DNA from: Ensifer sp. IC4062
GTDB lineage: Bacteria; Pseudomonadota; Alphaproteobacteria; Rhizobiales; Rhizobiaceae
Direction of reading: 5' to 3'
DNA: 64,000 nucleotides
Assembly: GCF_020193575.1 (NCBI RefSeq)
Contig: NZ_JADYVD010000011.1
Span: 62,001-126,000 of the forward strand
The notes beneath the pieces were generated by a model. The model saw only the letters and a list, made by a program, of their open reading frames with translations. It was not told where the DNA came from and ran no database searches. This document shows positions 3,781 through 49,833 of this stretch, in pieces; the stretch's first letter is position 1, and each line of letters begins with the position of its first letter. The position numbers and the translations under genes are program-made.

Positions 3781-3792
3781 TCGCCGGCGCTG

Positions 3793-3895
3793 CAGCACCG
3801 CGCGTCCCTTCAGGCGCGCAAACGGCGCTGTGGTACTTTGAATTGCTGCATGTTTTTATCGGGTATGATTCAAGGAGACATGCAGCTTAGCAGCG
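3793..3895 (+). repeat. RIME1-like intergenic mosaic element, copy 1
   Basis: This is a copy of a roughly 100-bp element seen seven times in the window. It consists of a GC-rich dyad (CACCGCGCGTC ... GCGCTGTGG), then ACTTTGAATTGCTGCATG, then a second dyad ending in ACATGCAG. The second dyad is damaged here (TATCGGGTATGATTCAAGG in place of the usual paired AAATCG arms). Its size and two-palindrome structure match what I recall of the rhizobial element RIME1; the name is inferred. Confidence 0.75.
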
Positions 3896-13173: not shown

Positions 13174-13272
13174 TACTGCATGATTCTCTTAAATCGGAAT
13201 CGATTTAAGAGAATCATGCAGCGCTTCAAAGTGCTACAGCGATCTTTGCGCGTCCGATTCGACGCCGCGCTG
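13174..13272 (-). repeat. RIME1-like element, copy 3, with a perfect 21-bp inverted repeat
   Basis: This copy is in reverse orientation. Its first dyad is flawless: 21-bp arms at 13176-13196 and 13201-13221 (CTGCATGATTC...AAATCG) around a 4-nt GAAT loop. It continues with CTTCAAAGTGCTACAGCG and the GCGCGTC...GACGCCGCGCTGT part. It sits between the F0 terminator and the 3' end of rnhB. Confidence 0.85.
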
Positions 13273-17038: not shown

Positions 17039-17137
17039 TGATTATTCCTGAAATCGAAGTCGTCTGAAGGACAAATCACGCAGCAATGCAAAAAGCTACA
17101 GCGACCTTTGCGCCTCCGATTGGACGCGCGGCGCTGT
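17039..17137 (-). repeat. RIME1-like element, copy 4, overlapping the 3' end of ispE
   Basis: A reverse-oriented copy with a decayed AAATCG palindrome but intact GCTACAGCGACCTTTGCGCC and GGACGCGCGGCGCTGT parts. The ispE stop codon (17096-17098) and the last 14 ispE codons lie inside it. Confidence 0.8.
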
Positions 17138-18031
17138 CGTTCGTGCGGCGCAAACGTACCATTCCGGACGGCTGGCGGAAATACGCTGGGCGGCCCGGTG
17201 CGCTCTTTCGTCGCTGTCGAAAAGCCCGAAGCATGTGGCGCCAGAGCCGGACATGCGTACAAGCGCGGCGCCCGCCGTCCTCAGGATGTCTGACACCTCC
17301 TCGATCACGGGAGCGAGACCCCGCGCGGGCGTCTCCAGATCGTTGCGCATGTCAGCCATGGCCAACAACCATTCCGCCGCTGTGTTCATTCCCTTCGGCA
17401 GGTCGAGCGCTGGATTCGCCTTGTTGACGAGCATGCGGAAGATCTCCGGCGTCGAAACAGCGACCAGCGGATTGACGAGGACGATCGCGAAAGACGGGAG
17501 TTCGGGAAGGGGAGTAATCTCCTCGCCAATCCCCTTGGCGAGAAGCGGCCCGCCGTCGAGGCACATTGGCACATCCGCTCCAAGTTCGAGCGCAATGGCG
17601 TCGAGCTTCGCCGGCTCAACAGACGCGTCCCATAGCATAAGAAGACCACGAAGAGTTGCCGCCGCATCCGCCGAGCCACCGCCAATGCCGGAGGCCACGG
17701 GCAAATTCTTTTCGAGATGCAGGTGGACCGGACCGGCGGCCATGCCTCGTGACGTCAGTTCGCTTCGCAACAGGTCGCGCGCACGCAACACCAGATTGCC
17801 GCCTTTGCTTTCCGCCGAAAGCGGCAACCCGTCCGCGAAGCGCCCCGATAGGGTGAAACGGTCGGCGTCGGCCGACGCAAGACCAATCCGGTCGCCGCAA
17901 TCGGCGAAAGTTACGAGGCTTTCCAGAAGATGATGGCCGTCGGCGCGCTGGCCGACGACATGCAGCGCCAGATTGATCTTGGCTGGCGCCGCGCATGTGA
18001 GCGCGAAGCCCGGAATGCCGTCCGGATGCAT
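17096..18031 (-). CDS. ispE: 4-diphosphocytidyl-2-C-methyl-D-erythritol kinase
   Basis: The protein has 311 residues from the ATG at 18031, four bases after the stop of the upstream TPR gene. It is a GHMP kinase: APAKINLALHVVG with Lys18, the ATP loop PVASGIGGGSADAAA at 111-125, and MSGSGATCFGLF near the C-terminus. IspE phosphorylates CDP-methylerythritol in the MEP isoprenoid pathway. The final residues (TTAPRVQSEAQRSL) are read from a RIME-like repeat, so the natural C-terminus was probably replaced. The upstream in-frame extension overlaps the TPR gene and is not favoured. Confidence 0.93.
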   Translation of the reverse strand: MHPDGIPGFALTCAAPAKINLALHVVGQRADGHHLLESLVTFADCGDRIGLASADADRFTLSGRFADGLPLSAESKGGNLVLRARDLLRSELTSRGMAAGPVHLHLEKNLPVASGIGGGSADAAATLRGLLMLWDASVEPAKLDAIALELGADVPMCLDGGPLLAKGIGEEITPLPELPSFAIVLVNPLVAVSTPEIFRMLVNKANPALDLPKGMNTAAEWLLAMADMRNDLETPARGLAPVIEEVSDILRTAGAALVRMSGSGATCFGLFDSDERAHRAAQRISASRPEWYVCAARTTAPRVQSEAQRSL

Positions 18032-31937: not shown

Positions 31938-32435
31938 ATGACCGCCAAAATTCTCGTCAGTGCCTGTCTTATGGGCCATGCGGTGCGCTATGACGGTGCA
32001 TCGAAGCCGCTTTCTCACCCGGCGATCGATCGCTGGCGCGACGAGGGTCGGCTTGTGACGATCTGTCCCGAGATGTCGGCCGGCATGCCGGTTCCACGTC
32101 CGCCGGCGGAGATCGCCGACGGACAGGCGGGATCCGACGTGCTCTCAGGGGAGGCTCGGGTGGTCGAAAACACCGGCCGCGACGTGACGGACGAGTTTGT
32201 TCGAGCAGCCGAAAATGCGCTGGCGCTCGCGCTCGAAACGGGCTGTCGCTTCGCGCTGCTGATCGACGGGAGCCCGTCCTGCGGATCAGGCTTCATCTAC
32301 GACGGCAGCTTCACCGGCGCTCGGCATTCGGGCATGGGCGTGACCGCCGCATTGCTGCGGCAGAACGGCATTGAGGTTTATTCCGACGGCGAAATAGATG
32401 AACTCGTCGCTGCTGCAGGTTTCCTCAAATCGTAG
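31938..32435 (+). CDS. DUF523-family protein
   Basis: The protein has 165 residues. Conserved cysteines sit in ILVSACLMGHAVRYDG, LVTICPEMSAGMPVPRPPAEI and LIDGSPSCGSGFIYDGSF, the pattern of DUF523 proteins, which may bind a metal or cluster. The function is unknown. The last codons (GFLKS-stop) lie in the left arm of a RIME-like repeat, so the original C-terminus may have been cut or replaced. Confidence 0.85.
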   Translation: MTAKILVSACLMGHAVRYDGASKPLSHPAIDRWRDEGRLVTICPEMSAGMPVPRPPAEIADGQAGSDVLSGEARVVENTGRDVTDEFVRAAENALALALETGCRFALLIDGSPSCGSGFIYDGSFTGARHSGMGVTAALLRQNGIEVYSDGEIDELVAAAGFLKS

Positions 32436-32514
32436 CCGATTTAAGGATGAAAACACGCCGTCATTCAAAGCGCTACAGCGTCCCTTGCGCGTCTGATAGG
32501 AGGCGCGGCGCTGT
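32413..32514 (-). repeat. RIME1-like element, copy 5, overlapping the 3' end of the DUF523 gene
   Basis: A reverse-oriented copy beginning CTGCAGGTTTCCTCAAATCG, then GATTTAAGGATGAAAAC, CATTCAAAGCGCTACAGCG and GCGTCTGATAGGAGGCGCGG. The stop codon of the DUF523 gene (32433-32435) falls in the loop of its first palindrome. Confidence 0.8.
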
Positions 32515-33389: not shown

Positions 33390-34654
33390 GTTTCCCGCGC
33401 GACGGCGCGCCAGCCGATGTCGTGACGATAGAACCCGTTTTCCCAGGAGACGTCGCGCAGGGCCGCGTAAGCGGCGTCCTTGGCCTCATTGACGCTTTTG
33501 CCCATCGCCGTGACGTTGAGCACGCGGCCGCCAGTCGCGACCAACTGGTCGTCCTTCATCGCCGTGCCGGCATGAAACACCTTGGTTGTTGCGGATTCGC
33601 TGGGCAGGGCAGTGATCGGCGTGTTCTTCTCGTAGGCGCCCGGATATCCCCGCGAGGCCATGACGACCGTCAGCGCCGCCTCATCCCGCCAATCAACGCT
33701 CATCGCGCCGAGTGTTCCGGTCGCAGCGGCGTAGAGCAGCGGCAACAGATCACTCTTCATGCGCATCATCAGCACCTGGCACTCGGGGTCGCCGAAGCGG
33801 ACATTGTATTCGATGAGTTCCGGGCCATTTTTGGTGATCATCAGCCCGGCGAAAAAGACACCGGTGAAGGGATGGCCACTTTCGGCCATGCCACGCATCG
33901 TCGGCTCGATAATCTCCTTCATCGTACGCTCGACCATTTCCGCCGTCATTACTGGCGCCGGCGAATAGGCGCCCATGCCGCCGGTGTTGGGCCCCGTGTC
34001 GCCGTCGCCGACGCGCTTGTGATCCTGTGCCGAGGCGAGCGGCAAAGCGTTCTTGCCGTCGCACAGACAGAAGAAGCTCGCTTCTTCGCCATCGAGATAG
34101 GCCTCGACGACAACTTCCGCGCCGGCGGACCCGAAGGCGCCAGCGAAGCACTCGTCGACGGCGGCGAGGGCCTCGTCAAGCGTCATCGCGACGGTCACGC
34201 CCTTGCCGGCGGCGAGCCCGTCGGCCTTGATGACGATCGGAGAACCTTGCTCCCGCACATAGGTCTTTGCCGCTTCCGCCTCGGTGAACCGTTTGTAGGC
34301 GCCGGTCGGAATGCCGTATTTCGCGCAGACATCCTTGGTAAAGCCCTTGGAGCCTTCGAGTTGGGCAGCGGCGGCGGACGGACCGAAGACCGCAATGCCT
34401 GCGGCGCGGAGCGTGTCCGCGAGTCCCGCGACGAGTGGCGCCTCGGGGCCGACGACGACGAAATCGATCGCCGTCCGCCGGCAGAAATCGACCACAGCCT
34501 GTTGGTTGTCGACATCAAGGGCGACGATCGTCGCTTCTTCGGCGATGCCTGGATTTCCCGGTGCGGCGTAAAGCGCTGTCAGTTTCGGCGATTGTGCGAT
34601 TTTCCACGCAAGCGCATGTTCGCGTCCGCCCGATCCGATCAGAAGAACTTTCAT
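33383..34654 (-). CDS. purD: phosphoribosylamine--glycine ligase
   Basis: The protein has 423 residues from the second ATG ([17 protein letters not shown]); an ATG two codons earlier is also usable. The ATP-grasp enzyme shows [50 protein letters not shown] and [12 protein letters not shown]. It makes glycinamide ribonucleotide in purine synthesis. Its stop codon touches a mosaic repeat. It stands alone downstream of the GGDEF-EAL gene, with about 90 bp between their ends and starts. Confidence 0.97.
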
Positions 34655-34742
34655 TGCCATCCTCGCCGTCAGGTAATTGCTGCGCTGCGGTTAGGACGGC
34701 AAGCGGGGTAAGGTCAAGGGAAAAGCGGTGTCCGCAGTGGAT

Positions 34743-37133
34743 TCAAACGGGCACCGGGGTCGAGCGGCCGTCCGTCCGCCAGTCCTCGGCATTTTCAGCA
34801 ATGACTTCGGTCGTGGATTGCGCCGTTCGGGTCAGCGCCCAGATTCCGAGATCGTCGAGCGAAAGCGGCTTGCTGATCAGATAGCCCTGGAACCGATCGC
34901 AGCCGGCTGCGGTCAGCATCGCAAGCTTTTCCGGCGTATCCACGCCTTCGCCGACCACGGCCATATCCTTCGCGTGGCAGAGAGCGACGACGGCCTTGAG
35001 AACAGGCAGGGACTGTGACGCCGTCAGGTTGGAGACGAGCGCTCTGTCGAGTTTGATCGTGTCCGCGGCATAGTCGATGATTTGCTGAACCGAAGTGTAG
35101 CCGGCGCCAAAATCGTCGATCGAGAGCCGGAAGCCTTTCTGGCGCAGGTCTTCGATGTTCCGGCGTAAGTGATCGCTCACTTTGACGGCGAAGGTTTCCG
35201 TCAGTTCGATATCGATCGACTCCGGCTGAAGTCCATGGCGTTCGACACAATCGGAAAAATAGTCACTGATCGAGCGCGAGTGCAGCTCGGCGGAAGAAAT
35301 GTTGATCGCCAGCACGGTGTCGGGTCCGAAGAGCGCTTTCAATTGGCGGCAATCGGACATCGCCTTGTTGATGACCCACCAGTCGATCTTCGAAAACAGG
35401 CCGGAGCTTTCCGCGATCGGCACGAATTCGTCCGGAGTGACGTTGCCGAGAATGGGGGAGTGCCAGCGCAGCAGGGCCTCGCAGCCAGTGACGCGGCCTC
35501 TCGCGTCCACGATCGGCATGTAGACGAGGTGAAACTGCTCGTCCGGATCGAGAGAGCGCATTTCCTCCTGTATCTGGCGCAACCGCGTGCGTCTGTCATG
35601 GAGCGCACGGGAGAAACGGGTGGAGCGGTTCTTGCCAGCGCTCTTGGCCTGATACATGGCGGCGTCGGCATTGGATATCAGTTCGGCGACATTGCTCGCG
35701 TCGTCCGGACAGATCGCCGCGCCGATGCTCGCCGTTACCGGATAGCGCTTGCCGGACACCTCGAAGCCGTCGTCGAACAGCGCGAGAATTGTGGCAGCGA
35801 TTTCCCGGACGGTGCCGTCACCCGGTCTTGAGCGCACCAGCACGGCAAACTCGTCGCCGGATAGGCGGGCGAAGATCGCTGGGTTCTGGCCCCGCCTTCG
35901 GGTGATGGCGTCGACATGGTCTGCAAGTCGGGTTGCAAGCGTCTTCAGGAGTTCGTCGCCGACTTCGTGGCCATGCTTGTCGTTGACAAATTTGAAATTG
36001 TCGATGTCGATGAAGAGCAAGCTGCATTTTTCGCCTGACGAGATGGCTTCCTCAACGACACCGGTAGCAAGCATGTTGAAATGTGCGCGATTGCTAATGC
36101 CGGTAAGCGTGTCCGTCCAGGAGCTTTTCTGCACCAGCTCCAGCGAATGCACCGACTGGCGATGCAATTCGCGGATGTTTTGGGTCAGGCGGCCGATTTC
36201 GCCCACCTCGTCGTGCTCCACGATTCCATCGCGTGCTCCGACCATGACCGCCATGACGTTGGCGTCGAGCGTGGCGATCGGCCCTGTAATGAAGCGCCGA
36301 ATCAGGAAGACGATAAGCCAGATCGAAAAAAGGCTCATCGCTACTGCACCAAGGGCAAGCAACGTCTTCTGGCGCAGCATTTGGCTGTCGAAATGCGCGT
36401 CCGAAATGGTCAGCGTCGCGTAGAGCGCCGGTCCGAGTGGCGCGCTGGCCGAAAGGTAATCGGTGACGGCGAGCGGCCAGGGTTGGAGAACAATGTCGGC
36501 CTCGTATTCCTTCTTCAGCGCGGCCTGCATTTGAAGGAAACGATCGGGCTGCACGGCTACCTGCATCAGCAGCGCATTCGCCTTGTTGCTGGGCAGAGGG
36601 CGGGCAAGGGTGATTGGATCGATGAACTGGGAGTAGACGATTCTGGGTCGCCCGCCGACGTCATGAAGATAGGTCCAATCCGTAAGCTTGGTGCCCTTGA
36701 CGAGTCTCCTGGCCAGTTCAACCTGTGCCCCGTCGACGTCTGCAAACGGATCCCAGCTGTTTTCGAAATAATATTCCGTTTCCAGCTTAGAGCTCAGGAT
36801 GACCAGCGACACGAAGCCCATAGGGTCGTCCGAGAGCGACTTTACGCTTTCCTGCAGACGCGCGCCGAGCGCGGTGGCGCGGTAGGTCTTATCCGTTTCG
36901 GATACGAACTGGCGCAGCGCATTGCTGTTCAGCAGAGCGTTGAGGAAACTCTTGCTCCGTCGGACCTCGCTCTGAAAGACTGCGGCCGCGTGCTCGAGTC
37001 TTTGCGACAGTTTGGCGTGTTCAAGCGCCCGGATCGAGCGGCTTTGGGCGACGTGAACCGAAAAGGCAGCGAGGAGGTAGCCGGCAAGCACCACAGGGAA
37101 GATGAGGAGGAGCGCGCGCTTGTCGAGTGTCAC
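34743..37133 (-). CDS. mbaA: MbaA-like membrane GGDEF-EAL protein
   Basis: The protein has 796 residues from a GTG start. Membrane helices near 7-25 and 257-279 flank a periplasmic domain of about 230 residues, then a HAMP-like linker. The GGDEF domain (about 338-505) carries SGDEF at 425-429 and no RxxD inhibitory site. The EAL domain (about 525-775) has EALLRW at 552-557, Asn611, DDFG at 673-676 and Lys694. Two EAL positions deviate: YMP for YQP near 539 and GEGVDT at 728-733 for AEGVET. It could make or break c-di-GMP. The start overlaps the stop of a PotD-like gene (GTGA), the same arrangement as nspS-mbaA of Vibrio, where the binding protein controls the enzyme from the periplasm. Confidence 0.85.
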   Translation of the reverse strand: MTLDKRALLLIFPVVLAGYLLAAFSVHVAQSRSIRALEHAKLSQRLEHAAAVFQSEVRRSKSFLNALLNSNALRQFVSETDKTYRATALGARLQESVKSLSDDPMGFVSLVILSSKLETEYYFENSWDPFADVDGAQVELARRLVKGTKLTDWTYLHDVGGRPRIVYSQFIDPITLARPLPSNKANALLMQVAVQPDRFLQMQAALKKEYEADIVLQPWPLAVTDYLSASAPLGPALYATLTISDAHFDSQMLRQKTLLALGAVAMSLFSIWLIVFLIRRFITGPIATLDANVMAVMVGARDGIVEHDEVGEIGRLTQNIRELHRQSVHSLELVQKSSWTDTLTGISNRAHFNMLATGVVEEAISSGEKCSLLFIDIDNFKFVNDKHGHEVGDELLKTLATRLADHVDAITRRRGQNPAIFARLSGDEFAVLVRSRPGDGTVREIAATILALFDDGFEVSGKRYPVTASIGAAICPDDASNVAELISNADAAMYQAKSAGKNRSTRFSRALHDRRTRLRQIQEEMRSLDPDEQFHLVYMPIVDARGRVTGCEALLRWHSPILGNVTPDEFVPIAESSGLFSKIDWWVINKAMSDCRQLKALFGPDTVLAINISSAELHSRSISDYFSDCVERHGLQPESIDIELTETFAVKVSDHLRRNIEDLRQKGFRLSIDDFGAGYTSVQQIIDYAADTIKLDRALVSNLTASQSLPVLKAVVALCHAKDMAVVGEGVDTPEKLAMLTAAGCDRFQGYLISKPLSLDDLGIWALTRTAQSTTEVIAENAEDWRTDGRSTPVPV

Positions 37134-38170
37134 TGGAAATTCGCCAATGTACTGATGATGCGTCGGCGCGCTTGCACCGACTCGATGGAAAGTTCTTGCT
37201 GAAACTGGCTCTTCGCCAGTATTTCCGGAGGAGGATAAATCGCCGGGTCAGAGCGCATCATTGCGGGCAGGAGCTTGAGCGCCGCGCTGCTTGCTGTCGG
37301 CATGGTCAACGCCATCGCGTTTGCGGCAGCACTTTCCGCGGAACCGACGAAATCGAGAAACTCCAGCGCCCGCCGCTTGTTCGGTGAGCTTGCCGTCGCG
37401 GCCATACAATCGAGCCAGGAAAGGGTGCCTTCGTTCGGGACCGAATAGTGCCAGAGACCGGGGACACCAACCTTGTCGTTGAGCACATGCTGGTCACCGC
37501 TGTAGCCGAGCGCCATGTGAATGTTTCCTCCGATCGCGGGGTTCTGGACGGAGGTGATCACATAATCGTAGGTCAGCACGGACGGTGCTTGTTCCCTCAT
37601 GAGGTCGAAGGCCGCCTTCAGCGTCTCGTTGTCGTTGGCGTTGATGGACGCACCGAGTAGCATCAATGGGGCCACGAAGGCCTCGTTGTGGTCGTCGAAC
37701 ATCGCGATGTGCTTCTTCAGCTCCAGCCTCGGGCGCATTAGATTCTGCCAGGAGGTCGGGCGCTCCTTCACGACATCGGAACGGTAGAGAATGCCCATGG
37801 TGCCCCAAAGATAGGGCAGGCCGTGTCCGGCGCAGCGCTTGCGCCATTCGGGCGCATAGTCTTTGAGAGAAGGGACATTGGCGTCGGTGAGCGGTTCGAG
37901 AACACCCTTCCTGCCGAAAAGCGCCGCACCGTTTTCTCCGACGACGACGATATCGATGTTGCTGCCCGGATCCGCCAGGATCTCGTCGCGGGCATCGCCG
38001 CTGTCATAGTTGACCTGATGGATCTTGACGCCCGTCTTCGCCGTCCAGCGGTCGACGATTCTCTGATCGATGTAGGATTCCCAGATGAGCAGGTTGAGCG
38101 TTTCGGCGCGGGCAGCGGACGCGTATGCCAGCGTCGCCAGGAAGACGGAAAAGACCGCGCGCCCTCTCAT
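37130..38170 (-). CDS. nspS: PotD/NspS-like periplasmic polyamine-binding protein
   Basis: The protein has 346 residues. A signal peptide (MRGRAVFSVFLATLAYASAARAE) precedes ETLNLLIWESYIDQRIVDRW, the start of PotD-type substrate-binding proteins. Further family features are DIVVVGENGAALF, PYLWGTMGILYRSDVV and GTLSWLDCMAATA. No ATPase or permease gene adjoins it. Instead its stop overlaps the start of a GGDEF-EAL gene, so it is probably a sensor subunit rather than a transport subunit. The ligand (a polyamine such as norspermidine, spermidine or putrescine) is inferred from family. The ATG at 38170 is preferred over longer readings since the signal peptide begins there. Confidence 0.85.
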   Translation of the reverse strand: MRGRAVFSVFLATLAYASAARAETLNLLIWESYIDQRIVDRWTAKTGVKIHQVNYDSGDARDEILADPGSNIDIVVVGENGAALFGRKGVLEPLTDANVPSLKDYAPEWRKRCAGHGLPYLWGTMGILYRSDVVKERPTSWQNLMRPRLELKKHIAMFDDHNEAFVAPLMLLGASINANDNETLKAAFDLMREQAPSVLTYDYVITSVQNPAIGGNIHMALGYSGDQHVLNDKVGVPGLWHYSVPNEGTLSWLDCMAATASSPNKRRALEFLDFVGSAESAAANAMALTMPTASSAALKLLPAMMRSDPAIYPPPEILAKSQFQQELSIESVQARRRIISTLANFQ

Positions 38171-38317
38171 TTCATGCCCCTGCCCAAGCTCCCATCGGAA
38201 AACGGTAACGCGCAATAATTTATGAATGATTACAGAGGGCCGCGTCGGCAGATGCGGATTTCGATGCCGCCGGATGTCCCTCGGTCGGGCCACCGGCCGG
38301 GCTGCATGGACGGCGTC

Positions 38318-39514
38318 CTATCTCGTTGGAAGCTTAGGCAGCAGCACCGTCAGGATACCGAGCAACGGCAGGTAGGAGCAGAGCTCGTAGACGAACGCGA
38401 TGCCCTGCCGGTCGGCGAAGATGCCGAGCACTGCGGCGCCCATGCCGCCGAAGCCGAAGGCAAAGCCGAAAAAGACACCGGCAATCAGCCCGACACGGCC
38501 GGGAACGAGCTCCTGCGCGAAGACGACGATGGCGGAGAAGGCGGACGAAAAGATGAGGCCGATGACTACGCTCAGCACGCCAGTCCAGAACAGGTTTGCA
38601 TAGGGCAGCATGAGTGCGAACGGGATGACGCCGAGGATCGAGAACCAGATGACGAAGCGCGCGCCGTACCGGTCGCCGATCGGGCCGCCGAGAAAGGTTC
38701 CGGCAGCCGCCGAGCCGAGAAACAGGAACAGCATCAGTTGCGCCTGCTGCACGCTCGTGCCGAACTTCTCGATGATGAAGAAGGTAAAGTAGCTGGATAT
38801 GCTGGCGAGATAGACGTTCTTCGTCGCAGTCAGCAGAACGAGGATCGCGATTGCCCACAGAACGCGCGCCTTCGGCAAGGGAAGCGTGCGGTTCGGAGCG
38901 GGCCGGCTCATGGTCATGCGGCGATGGCGCACGTACCACGTGCTGACCCAGGAAAGGATGAAGAAGCCGGTGATCGCCATAATCGAGAACCAGGCGAGAC
39001 TGCCCTGGCCGAACGGAATCACGATGAAAGCTGCAAGCAGCGGTCCCAGCGCGCTGCCGGCATTGCCGCCGACCTGGAAGAGCGATTGCGCCAGCCCGTG
39101 GCGGCCGCCCGACGCGAGCCGGGCCACCCGGGACGACTCGGGATGAAAGATCGCGGAGCCGATCCCGATCAGGCTCGCCGCCACGAGAAGGATCCAGAAG
39201 TGATCGGCGTTAGCAAGGAGAATGAGGCCCGAGCAGGTCGAAAGCATGGCCACCGGCAGGGAATAGGGTAGTGCCCATCGATCGGTGACGATGCCAACCG
39301 CCGGCTGCAGCATCGACGCAGTCACTTGAAACGTGAAGGTCAGGAGGCCGATTTGGACGAAGTCGAGTGCGTAATTCGCCTTCAGCAACGGGTAGAGTGC
39401 AGTTAGCAGCGACTGCATCACATCATTCAGCATGTGACAGAAGCTGACCGCAAGAATGACGGAGAAGGCGGTCTTCTCGGGACTGATGCTTGCTGTCGAT
39501 GTTACTGAAGCCAT
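38318..39514 (-). CDS. MFS transporter, fosmidomycin-resistance type
   Basis: The protein has 398 residues from ATG 39514 (GGAG nine bases upstream); an ATG 45 bp earlier lacks a good site. It has twelve predicted helices. Family features are the N-terminal SFCHMLNDVMQSLLTALYPLLK, PAVGIVTDRWALPYS with the MFS loop, and GSAIFHPESSRVARLASGGRHGLAQSLFQVGGNAG. The last is the Fsr hallmark. It would export a drug or toxic metabolite across the inner membrane. It is divergent from an AraC regulator gene, with a dyad between. Confidence 0.9.
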   Translation of the reverse strand: MASVTSTASISPEKTAFSVILAVSFCHMLNDVMQSLLTALYPLLKANYALDFVQIGLLTFTFQVTASMLQPAVGIVTDRWALPYSLPVAMLSTCSGLILLANADHFWILLVAASLIGIGSAIFHPESSRVARLASGGRHGLAQSLFQVGGNAGSALGPLLAAFIVIPFGQGSLAWFSIMAITGFFILSWVSTWYVRHRRMTMSRPAPNRTLPLPKARVLWAIAILVLLTATKNVYLASISSYFTFFIIEKFGTSVQQAQLMLFLFLGSAAAGTFLGGPIGDRYGARFVIWFSILGVIPFALMLPYANLFWTGVLSVVIGLIFSSAFSAIVVFAQELVPGRVGLIAGVFFGFAFGFGGMGAAVLGIFADRQGIAFVYELCSYLPLLGILTVLLPKLPTR

Positions 39515-39592
39515 GAGATGTTTCTCCGCGAACGGCTCACCTGCTGAGCTGCCGGTCATCTCTAGACGGCTTGTTGCTGGCCTGCTTTTGTG

Positions 39593-39625: not shown

Positions 39626-40479
39626 TGACGAAGTCGAGAAGAAATTACCTGCCGCAATTGCCGGATGCGGATCATTTCAGAAGCCTGGAATGGATTGAAA
39701 GGGCGAACGTTTCCGTCCTGGCGATTGGCAAGGACTATGCCTCCGGCTTGAAGATCCCGCCGCACAGCCATAGCCGCACGCAGTTGTGGTGGGCGCGTTG
39801 CGGAGTCGTCCTGGTGCATACGCCAGGCGGGCGCTGGATGATCCCGCCGGGCCATGCCTTGCTCGTACCCGCCGGCACGGAACACTCGGCGGAGATGGTG
39901 AGCGATGTCCGGATGCATTCGATCTACATTTCCGCTGCCGCCGGCCGCGCGGATCGGCCACTCGTGCTGGAGATCACCTCGCTCGTCGGCAGCCTTATTG
40001 ATGCGTTGGTCGGCGCGCAAGACGAAGCGTCGTCGGAGCAACGGGAGCAATTGATCATGGATCTGTTGCTGGCGGAGATACCGAGGCTTGCCGAGCGACC
40101 GTTGGGCTTGCCTTTCCCGCAGAACCAGAGGCTTGCCTCGCTGTGCCGACAGTTCCTGAAGGCACCTTCGGCGACCGCGACCATAGATCAGTGGGCCGAT
40201 CGCATGGGCATCAGCCGCCGTTCCTTTACGCGTCTTTTTCGGCAAGAAACCGGCATCAGCTTTGTCACCTGGCGGCAGCAGGCTTGCATCTTCGGCTCGC
40301 TGCCGCGCCTCGCCGACGGCGAACCGATCACCACCGTGGCGCTCGACGCGGGCTACGAGAATGTCGCGGCGTTCACGACCATGTTCCGACGCATGCTTGG
40401 CGCCCCGCCAAGCCTTTATCTGCGCGACTACAGCGCCGCGCGTCTGATCAGACGCGCAAAGGACGCTGTAGCACTTTGA
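39625..40479 (+). CDS. AraC-family transcriptional regulator
   Basis: The protein has about 284 residues from a TTG at 39625 (MTKSRRNYLPQLPDADHF); another TTG at 39571 would add 18 residues. The N-terminal cupin shows PPHSHSRTQLWWARCGVVLVHT and MIPPGHALLVPAGTEHSAEM, and the C-terminal HTH shows WADRMGISRRSFTRLFRQETGISF and GYENVAAFTTMFRRMLGAPP. It is divergent from the MFS pump and likely regulates it. The last residues (SAARLIRRAKDAVAL) come from a RIME-like repeat. Confidence 0.85.
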   Translation: MTKSRRNYLPQLPDADHFRSLEWIERANVSVLAIGKDYASGLKIPPHSHSRTQLWWARCGVVLVHTPGGRWMIPPGHALLVPAGTEHSAEMVSDVRMHSIYISAAAGRADRPLVLEITSLVGSLIDALVGAQDEASSEQREQLIMDLLLAEIPRLAERPLGLPFPQNQRLASLCRQFLKAPSATATIDQWADRMGISRRSFTRLFRQETGISFVTWRQQACIFGSLPRLADGEPITTVALDAGYENVAAFTTMFRRMLGAPPSLYLRDYSAARLIRRAKDAVAL

Positions 40480-40531
40480 ATTGCTGCATGTTTTTATCCC
40501 TAAATCGGCTGCGATTTAAGGAAACATGCAG
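40430..40531 (+). repeat. RIME1-like element, copy 6, forming the 3' end of the araC gene
   Basis: A complete forward copy. ACAGCGCCGCGCGTCTGATC...GACGCGCAAAGGACGCTGT is followed by GCACTTTGAATTGCTGCATG and the dyad CCCTAAATCG / CGATTTAAGG, ending ACATGCAG. The araC stop TGA (40477-40479) is inside the conserved ACTTTGAATTG. Confidence 0.88.
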
Positions 40532-41520: not shown

Positions 41521-41614
41521 ATAGCGCCCCGCGTCTAACCGGACACGGACGCTGTGGCACCTTGAATCACCACATGTTCTTATCCTTAAATCGGCTAGGA
41601 TTTCAGGAAACATC
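41521..41614 (+). repeat. RIME1-like element, copy 7
   Basis: A forward copy, partly decayed: ATAGCGCCCCGCGTC, GACGCTGTGGCACCTTGAATC, CCTTAAATCGGCTAGGATTTCAGGAAACAT. It begins seven bases after the stop of the mipA gene. Confidence 0.78.
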
Positions 41615-41680
41615 CTCCACCAACAGTGGAACGGAGCGCGGCCGCTTGACCGTCCGGCCCCGGAGCGCCAAACAGGAGCG

Positions 41681-49279: not shown

Positions 49280-49604
49280 CCGCGCCGGCGCCATCCTTGT
49301 CGCGAAACGAGTTGATCCGTCCCGGAACGCTAACCCTTCAGGGTTAACAGATGATTTTTCAACACAATTGGCCGATGCCAAACACTCCACAGCAGTGTCG
49401 CAAAATGGCCAGCCCGTTTCGTGCCCGGGATGACGCTGCCGAAAAAATCGCCAGTCGCTTAAATTTTCAGCTATCGCATTGTTTATAATAATTAATATCG
49501 ATCACAACGTCGGTGCTTGATGAGCGAACACCGTGTCGTCTTTCCGGAAGCGGATGTCGTCAATCGGCAAATGAAAAGACACTGTGCGCGCTTAGATATG
49601 GACA

Positions 49605-49780
49605 CTCAAGGTGCCGCTCCAAGGAAGGCGGAGAATTGGGAAGCCGGTCAGATCCCGGCGCTGCCCCCGCAACGGTGGTGGAGTGAAGCCACGGCAAAAG
49701 GCCACTGGACAGTGTGTCCGGGAAGGCGCCGGGCGGGTCCCTTTAGGGGCCGCTCCAGAGCCCGGAAACCAGCCTTGGGA
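49605..49780 (+). promoter_or_regulatory. cobalamin (AdoCbl) riboswitch
   Basis: The order of elements fits the B12 aptamer. CAAGGTGCC (P1/P2) is followed by GGAGAATTGGGAAGCCGG, then CAGATCCCGGCGCTGCCCCCGCAAC (the B12 box). GTGGAGTGAAGCCAC forms P6, GGGAAGGCGCCGGG follows, and GAGCCCGGAAACCAGCCTTGG closes the element (CAAGG pairs with CCTTG). It precedes gbcA by about 120 bp, so betaine demethylase is likely reduced when cobalamin is plentiful. Confidence 0.95.
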
Positions 49781-49833
49781 CGAAAAATCGACCGTAACTG
49801 GTTGCGGCGGGCAGCCGGATCGGAGCCTTTGAC

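Follow-up and report, generated by a model that had tools for sequence, protein, structure and literature searches.

Within a 64,000-nucleotide stretch of the Ensifer sp. IC4062 genome (contig NZ_JADYVD010000011.1, positions 62,001 to 126,000; hereafter the window), the periplasmic binding protein gene nspS ends inside the start codon of mbaA, which encodes a membrane GGDEF–EAL protein. We conclude, with a probability of about 0.82, that this pair is the Sinorhizobium NspS–MbaA system, in which a small cationic ligand, probably a polyamine, acts through NspS on MbaA as a switch for cyclic di-guanosine monophosphate (c-di-GMP). An earlier note, made from the sequence alone, had described the pair as a polyamine-to-c-di-GMP sensor in a plant symbiont and had mentioned work on an equivalent system in S. 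meliloti. That work exists (PMC9993111, in its accessible text), and since the genes in the window are orthologous to those described there, both the observation and its main idea are already known from a relative. Sequence, synteny, phylogeny and catalytic residues bear out the NspS–MbaA assignment; the part that the note missed is the broader sensory clade to which NspS belongs. New here are two invariant cysteines in NspS, a Cache-like model of the MbaA sensor and a sensory clade with three kinds of output.

We infer the function of the pair in this species from that of its relatives. NspS would be exported, and its two lobes would close around a small cationic molecule, in all likelihood a polyamine; in this closed form it would dock on MbaA at the periplasmic, Cache-like sensor. 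Docking would shift MbaA, in one direction or the other, between c-di-GMP synthesis by its SGDEF-containing domain and breakdown by its EAL domain, and this switch would set exopolysaccharide production, biofilm formation and motility. The gene overlap may serve to keep NspS and MbaA in step.

Anatomy and conservation of the nspS–mbaA pair

Both genes and their GTGA overlap lie where the earlier note had placed them (Table 1). NspS belongs to the Pfam family SBP_bac_8 (3.6e-29), and MbaA contains GGDEF (1.7e-37) and EAL (1.5e-60) domains with intact catalytic motifs. We compared the pair with those of relatives in 86 rows, the window's own among them, of which 84 were kept for NspS counts (L135 and L165, with NspS open reading frames (ORFs) of more than 400 amino acids, were dropped) and 84 for MbaA counts (L113 and L165, with MbaA ORFs of fewer than 700 amino acids, were dropped). 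Both domains keep their catalytic residues across the rows, the GGDEF motif reading SGDEF in 81/84 and AGDEF in 3/84. Although the ORF list also allows a longer nspS starting at GTG 38293, we placed the start at ATG 38170 because it yields a plausible signal peptide, in a low-confidence part of the predicted structure (predicted local distance difference test, pLDDT, 56–60), and agrees with relatives. There, with starts picked by script, nspS begins with ATG in 80 of 84 rows, TTG in three and GTG in one, and mbaA with GTG (76/84) or ATG (8/84).

The search for the gene pair across Rhizobiaceae that the earlier note had called for found nspS directly upstream of mbaA in 30/30 fetched loci (the window's own included), a shared order that makes the pairing more than chance. 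The overlap is 4 nucleotides (nt) in 20 of these loci and 14 nt in 10, two of which print as 11 where the alignment began at residue 2. Over all 86 rows it is 4 nt in 57, 14 nt in 23 and 17 nt in two, the four irregular rows comprising a 242-nt gap (L041) and disrupted ORFs (L113, L135 and L165). Of 33 genomes from the genus, 32 have the MbaA sensor, the sole miss being an 85%-complete genome, and nspS was present in 29/29 fetched genus loci, not counting the window. More widely, the sensor occurs (E ≤ 1e-5) in 35/297 Rhizobiaceae genomes, two of them marginal partial matches, and in 17/398 Pseudomonadota genomes, 12 of which reach ~1e-27. Eight of these 12 strong matches have nspS upstream (one after a 242-nt gap) and four do not, demonstrating that mbaA-like genes lacking nspS exist too. 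The four loci (L043, L044, L047 and L048) apparently belong to Vibrio relatives; their mbaA-like gene lies beside one whose translation, in the absence of a family search, looks like pheA, and would encode a receptor whose binding protein was lost or was never there.

In trees of the MbaA sensor and of NspS, the rows nearest to the window were Ensifer sp. IC3342, Ensifer sp. MPMI2T and S. terangae, with S. meliloti 4H41 more distant (71% identity in NspS and 81% in MbaA). Identities to the window looked discordant, at 78% for the sensor and 71% for NspS in the S. meliloti-like L065, and at 70–71% and 75–76%, respectively, in L075, L080, L082 and similar members. Recombination inside the operon, suspected on this ground, was dropped since the two trees are broadly alike, with small differences at L114 and L133. 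In the 7.1 Mb host genome, both nifH and nodC score above the respective cut-offs, so that its description as a plant symbiont is well founded.

The model of NspS adopts a polyamine-binding-protein fold (pLDDT 92.7), with structures of PotD, PotF and SpuD among its top matches. We mapped 12 ligand-contact positions of PotD onto NspS. W30, Y33, D160, E163, W252 and D254 are kept in 76/76 rhizobial NspS rows and Q324 in 71/76, and position 31 is E in 74/76 and Q in 2/76 of these rows and E, D or Q in the other eight. NspS has in common with the PotD/PotF uptake proteins both the fold and some ligand-contact residues. It also has Cys113 and Cys255, invariant in 84/84 rows, every row having exactly two cysteines beyond residue 35 (in its longer reading, L181, the L039 gene has a third); cysteine is absent from both positions in 22/22 transporter rows of the tree described below. 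In the model, Cys113 follows helix 107–112 just before strand 118–130 and Cys255 lies within strand 249–259, an arrangement in which the two may form a disulfide on the hinge side of the protein.

The periplasmic sensor of MbaA lies between two transmembrane helices, as read from the long helices of its model, and each residue of its motif Y-x-E-x-S-x-D-P-F-A is kept in at least 82/84 rows. A Pfam search of the sensor returned no significant match, and identity with a known Pfam domain was rejected. The sensor model (pLDDT 82.2, predicted template modelling (TM) score 0.65) had its best matches in integrative models of Bacillus chemoreceptors, followed, with modest scores (E ~1e-4, target TM 0.42–0.61), by sensors of the Cache type, KinD among them, and the sensor is predicted on this basis to be Cache-like. 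Profile comparison with the sensors of other receptors gave probabilities of 89% and 95.5%, suggestive of shared ancestry; it is only suggestive because shared transmembrane and long helices may inflate the score and the alignments are shallow. Pfam gave no HAMP match in the MbaA of the window; Prosite is reported to find HAMP in S. meliloti MbaA (PMC9993111).

The published S. meliloti pair, smc00991–smc00992, agrees with that of the window in gene order, in having fsr upstream and in both catalytic motifs, SGDEF and EAL. It too has an overlap, which its authors count as 3 bp as opposed to our 4 nt, and it is predicted to form an operon. The window comes from a different Sinorhizobium species, and S. 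meliloti MbaA has 787 residues. According to the accessible text of that study, the putrescine- and spermine-driven drop in biofilm and exopolysaccharide is absent from an nspS mutant of strain 1021, and nspS mutants differ in how polyamines affect their biofilm, exopolysaccharide and motility; the polyamine effects are clear in 1021 but weaker and different in a quorum-sensing-proficient strain (PMC9993111). The V. cholerae NspS–MbaA system shares the pair, the domain order and the SGDEF motif, whereas it has EVL in place of EAL and a 16-bp overlap; it is ~32% (NspS) and ~31% (MbaA) identical to that of S. meliloti, in which eight predicted V. cholerae ligand-site residues are reported to be conserved (PMC9993111). 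The dissociation constants of V. cholerae NspS are 67 nM for norspermidine and 48 nM for spermidine, and it drives MbaA both ways (PMC8967002 and PMC8079147, in their accessible parts).

A wider clade of sensory binding proteins

Searching 398 Pseudomonadota genomes with an NspS profile, with at most five candidates scored per genome, resolved three tiers among the matches listed: eight NspS proper (E < 1e-125), a middle tier of at least 33 places (~1e-91 to 1e-67) and PotD/PotF-like proteins (~1e-60 and weaker). We fetched 20 middle-tier loci with wide flanks. The next gene encodes a co-directional receptor in 18 of them, namely three GGDEF–EAL proteins, 11 histidine kinases (four with clear receiver domains) and four SpoIIE proteins, with a 4-nt overlap between binding protein and receptor in eight of the 18; of the other two loci, one has a methyltransferase-like gene next and one has no downstream ORF near a contig end. 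A kinase gene also comes next in L200, L203 and L205, middle-tier loci beyond the fetched 20. The dCache_1 domain was found (E ≤ 1e-3) in 4/4 SpoIIE receptors, 9/11 kinases and 0/3 GGDEF–EAL receptors, exceeding its curated cut-off in only one SpoIIE receptor and three kinases. As controls, 20 transporter loci were fetched and the binding-protein gene recovered in 15 (18 ORFs); 14 of these 15 have Pot-type ATP-binding cassette (ABC) genes. Two groups of loci may be recorded separately: L229, L230 and L231, apparently from Vibrio relatives, hold a second NspS-like/GGDEF–EAL pair with 2–3 nt between the genes, and L232, L233, L235 and L236 hold an NspS-like binding protein beside a dCache–SpoIIE phosphatase receptor.

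A tree of 51 rows split 29 sensory rows (12 NspS, two second-type GGDEF partners and 15 others) from 22 transporter rows with support of 100/99.7. Within it, in a tree without the V. cholerae sequence, the 12 mbaA-linked NspS and the two second-type rows separated from the 37 others at 100/99. A first tree built with five of the genome's own paralogs had placed L042 weakly among the paralogs, with support of 67 for NspS against them; once better controls were included, support for NspS against the transporter side rose to 100/99. R61 is present in 29/29 sensory and 0/22 transporter rows, and W109 in 29/29 and 1/22; the middle-tier loci were picked by their NspS-profile score, so that residues common to them were partly selected for. 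The kinase- and SpoIIE-linked proteins resemble NspS in having both R61 and W109 (15/15) but differ in their outputs and in lacking C113 (0/15), with C255 present in 8/15.

We tentatively propose, at somewhat less than even odds, that NspS is a branch of a separate sensory PotD clade whose genes, by overlap or adjacency, have repeatedly become wired to those of membrane receptors. Most of these receptors would have a sensor of the Cache type, and their outputs are c-di-GMP, (hybrid) histidine kinase or SpoIIE signalling. R61 and W109 would mark sensory function and plausibly form the docking face, and in the c-di-GMP branch Cys113 and Cys255 would be joined by a disulfide next to the hinge, setting the open–closed balance for signalling. 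Our searches of open-access literature listed no account of an NspS-like protein partnered by a kinase or a SpoIIE protein, or of the two cysteines. The clade bears on how one binding protein draws opposite outputs from two similar ligands and on how it comes to recognize a receptor rather than a transporter.

Weighing the polyamine–MbaA assignment

Several observations weigh against a polyamine signal passing from NspS to MbaA. The rhizobial work that we consulted contains no report of polyamine binding to NspS, of NspS binding to MbaA or of a resulting change in c-di-GMP. The accessible text of PMC9993111 indicates that the S. meliloti nspS insertion almost certainly blocks mbaA expression too, that the 1021 nspS mutant still loses 15–25% of its biofilm with putrescine, cadaverine, spermidine or spermine, and that, of the seven residues which V. 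cholerae needs to respond to norspermidine, S. meliloti NspS has only three in conserved or similar form. The opposite responses of V. cholerae to norspermidine and spermidine have no counterpart there, as no polyamine acted reciprocally in S. meliloti (PMC9993111, same text). Orphan SBP_bac_8 proteins of P. aeruginosa, predicted to bind polyamines, preferred γ-aminobutyric acid (GABA) or 5-aminovalerate, and no contact was seen between them and the neighbouring kinase, as far as the accessible part of PMC11113362 goes. Finally, five of the 12 mapped PotD contacts differ in rhizobial NspS: T35 is replaced by E or Q, S83 mostly by G, D or N, Y85 mostly by N, W229 by Y223 and Y293 by M290.

The P. 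aeruginosa preferences raise the alternative that rhizobial NspS, with the same architecture, responds not to a classical polyamine but to some compound of the plant or nodule, for example GABA, 5-aminovalerate or a different amine, and Arg61, given its distribution between sensory and transporter rows, could in principle hold a carboxylate. We consider this unlikely, because the acidic and aromatic contact positions are kept, together with an acidic or amide residue at position 31, and because Arg61 is also found in eight non-rhizobial NspS, three of them apparently from Vibrio relatives, and V. cholerae NspS binds polyamines. Direct detection by the Cache-like domain of MbaA, with NspS as a mere modulator, would suit the sensor model and its conserved motif, and a polyamine-binding dCache domain, that of McpU, is reportedly known (from a title in a reference list). 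Since the accessible V. cholerae work places polyamine detection in NspS (PMC8967002, PMC8079147), we regard such direct detection as quite improbable.

Least credible is that NspS serves a distant polyamine ABC transporter and neighbours mbaA incidentally, even if the genome offers 46 SBP_bac_8 matches and several Pot-type ABC gene sets. As the earlier note had claimed, there is no transporter partner in the window, where Escherichia coli PotA/B/C/G/H/I probes match nothing over 64 kb and nspS belongs to no ABC operon of the kind that marks PotD and PotF as transport proteins; five other binding-protein matches, from a separate search of the genome, by contrast each adjoin ABC-transporter genes. 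NspS also falls outside the transporter rows (29 versus 22), and its pairing with mbaA has held across distant bacteria, the exceptions being the 4/12 strong phylum matches. In our judgment the pair is a member of the NspS–MbaA kind and would work in the same way.

Coordinates, regulation and implications

Table 1 Features of the nspS–mbaA locus, in window positions
Feature	Position	Strand	Description
nspS	37130..38170	minus	PotD/PotF-like periplasmic binding protein, 346 amino acids, ATG start
mbaA	34743..37133	minus	membrane GGDEF–EAL protein, 796 amino acids, GTG start
GTGA	37130..37133	minus	shared by nspS TGA stop and mbaA GTG start
NspS signal peptide	38105..38170	minus	residues ~1–22, ending ASAARA, without lipobox cysteine; read from sequence
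Cys113 codon	37832..37834	minus	invariant in NspS
Cys255 codon	37406..37408	minus	directly after Asp254 (PotD D257 position)
MbaA periplasmic sensor	36309..37064	minus	residues ~24–275; Cache-like in model; motif Y122-x-E-x-S-x-D-P-F-A131
GGDEF domain of MbaA	35625..36119	minus	residues 339–503, SGDEF motif
EAL domain of MbaA	34866..35540	minus	residues 532–756; EALLRW motif, retains metal and catalytic residues
Conserved block upstream of nspS	38211..38235	minus	core GTAAxCATTCxTxAATTxTTGC; possible promoter/operator
fsr	38318..39559	minus	major facilitator superfamily (MFS) exporter gene upstream of nspS, context and not part of the sensor; MFS_1 3.3e-42

A consensus promoter scan of 34600–38400 returned 0 sites (mean of 1.0 in shuffles), and conservation was used in its place. 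Across 30 aligned Sinorhizobium/Ensifer rows the block upstream of nspS shows strong conservation, and the window holds a single copy of it; this suggests that nspS–mbaA is driven by its own promoter. The gene name fsr is that used in a separate study of that gene (PMC12095868, accessible part).

Elsewhere in the window, a dispersed repeat of 54–71 nt occurs in both orientations at 3790–3860, 13212–13265, 17073–17140 and 40428–40498, the copies being 84–86% alike to that at 40428. A 101-nt inverted pair (32406–32506 and 41524–41624) is 72% complementary, and a cobalamin riboswitch lies on the plus strand at 49592–49791 (109 bits).

Our data suggest that NspS–MbaA is a general feature of the genus and not a quirk of S. 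meliloti. The lasting interest lies in the wider sensory clade and in the residues that mark it, since a signature separating sensory from transport members, together with natural relatives beside three kinds of output, would open docking residues and receptor swaps to direct tests.

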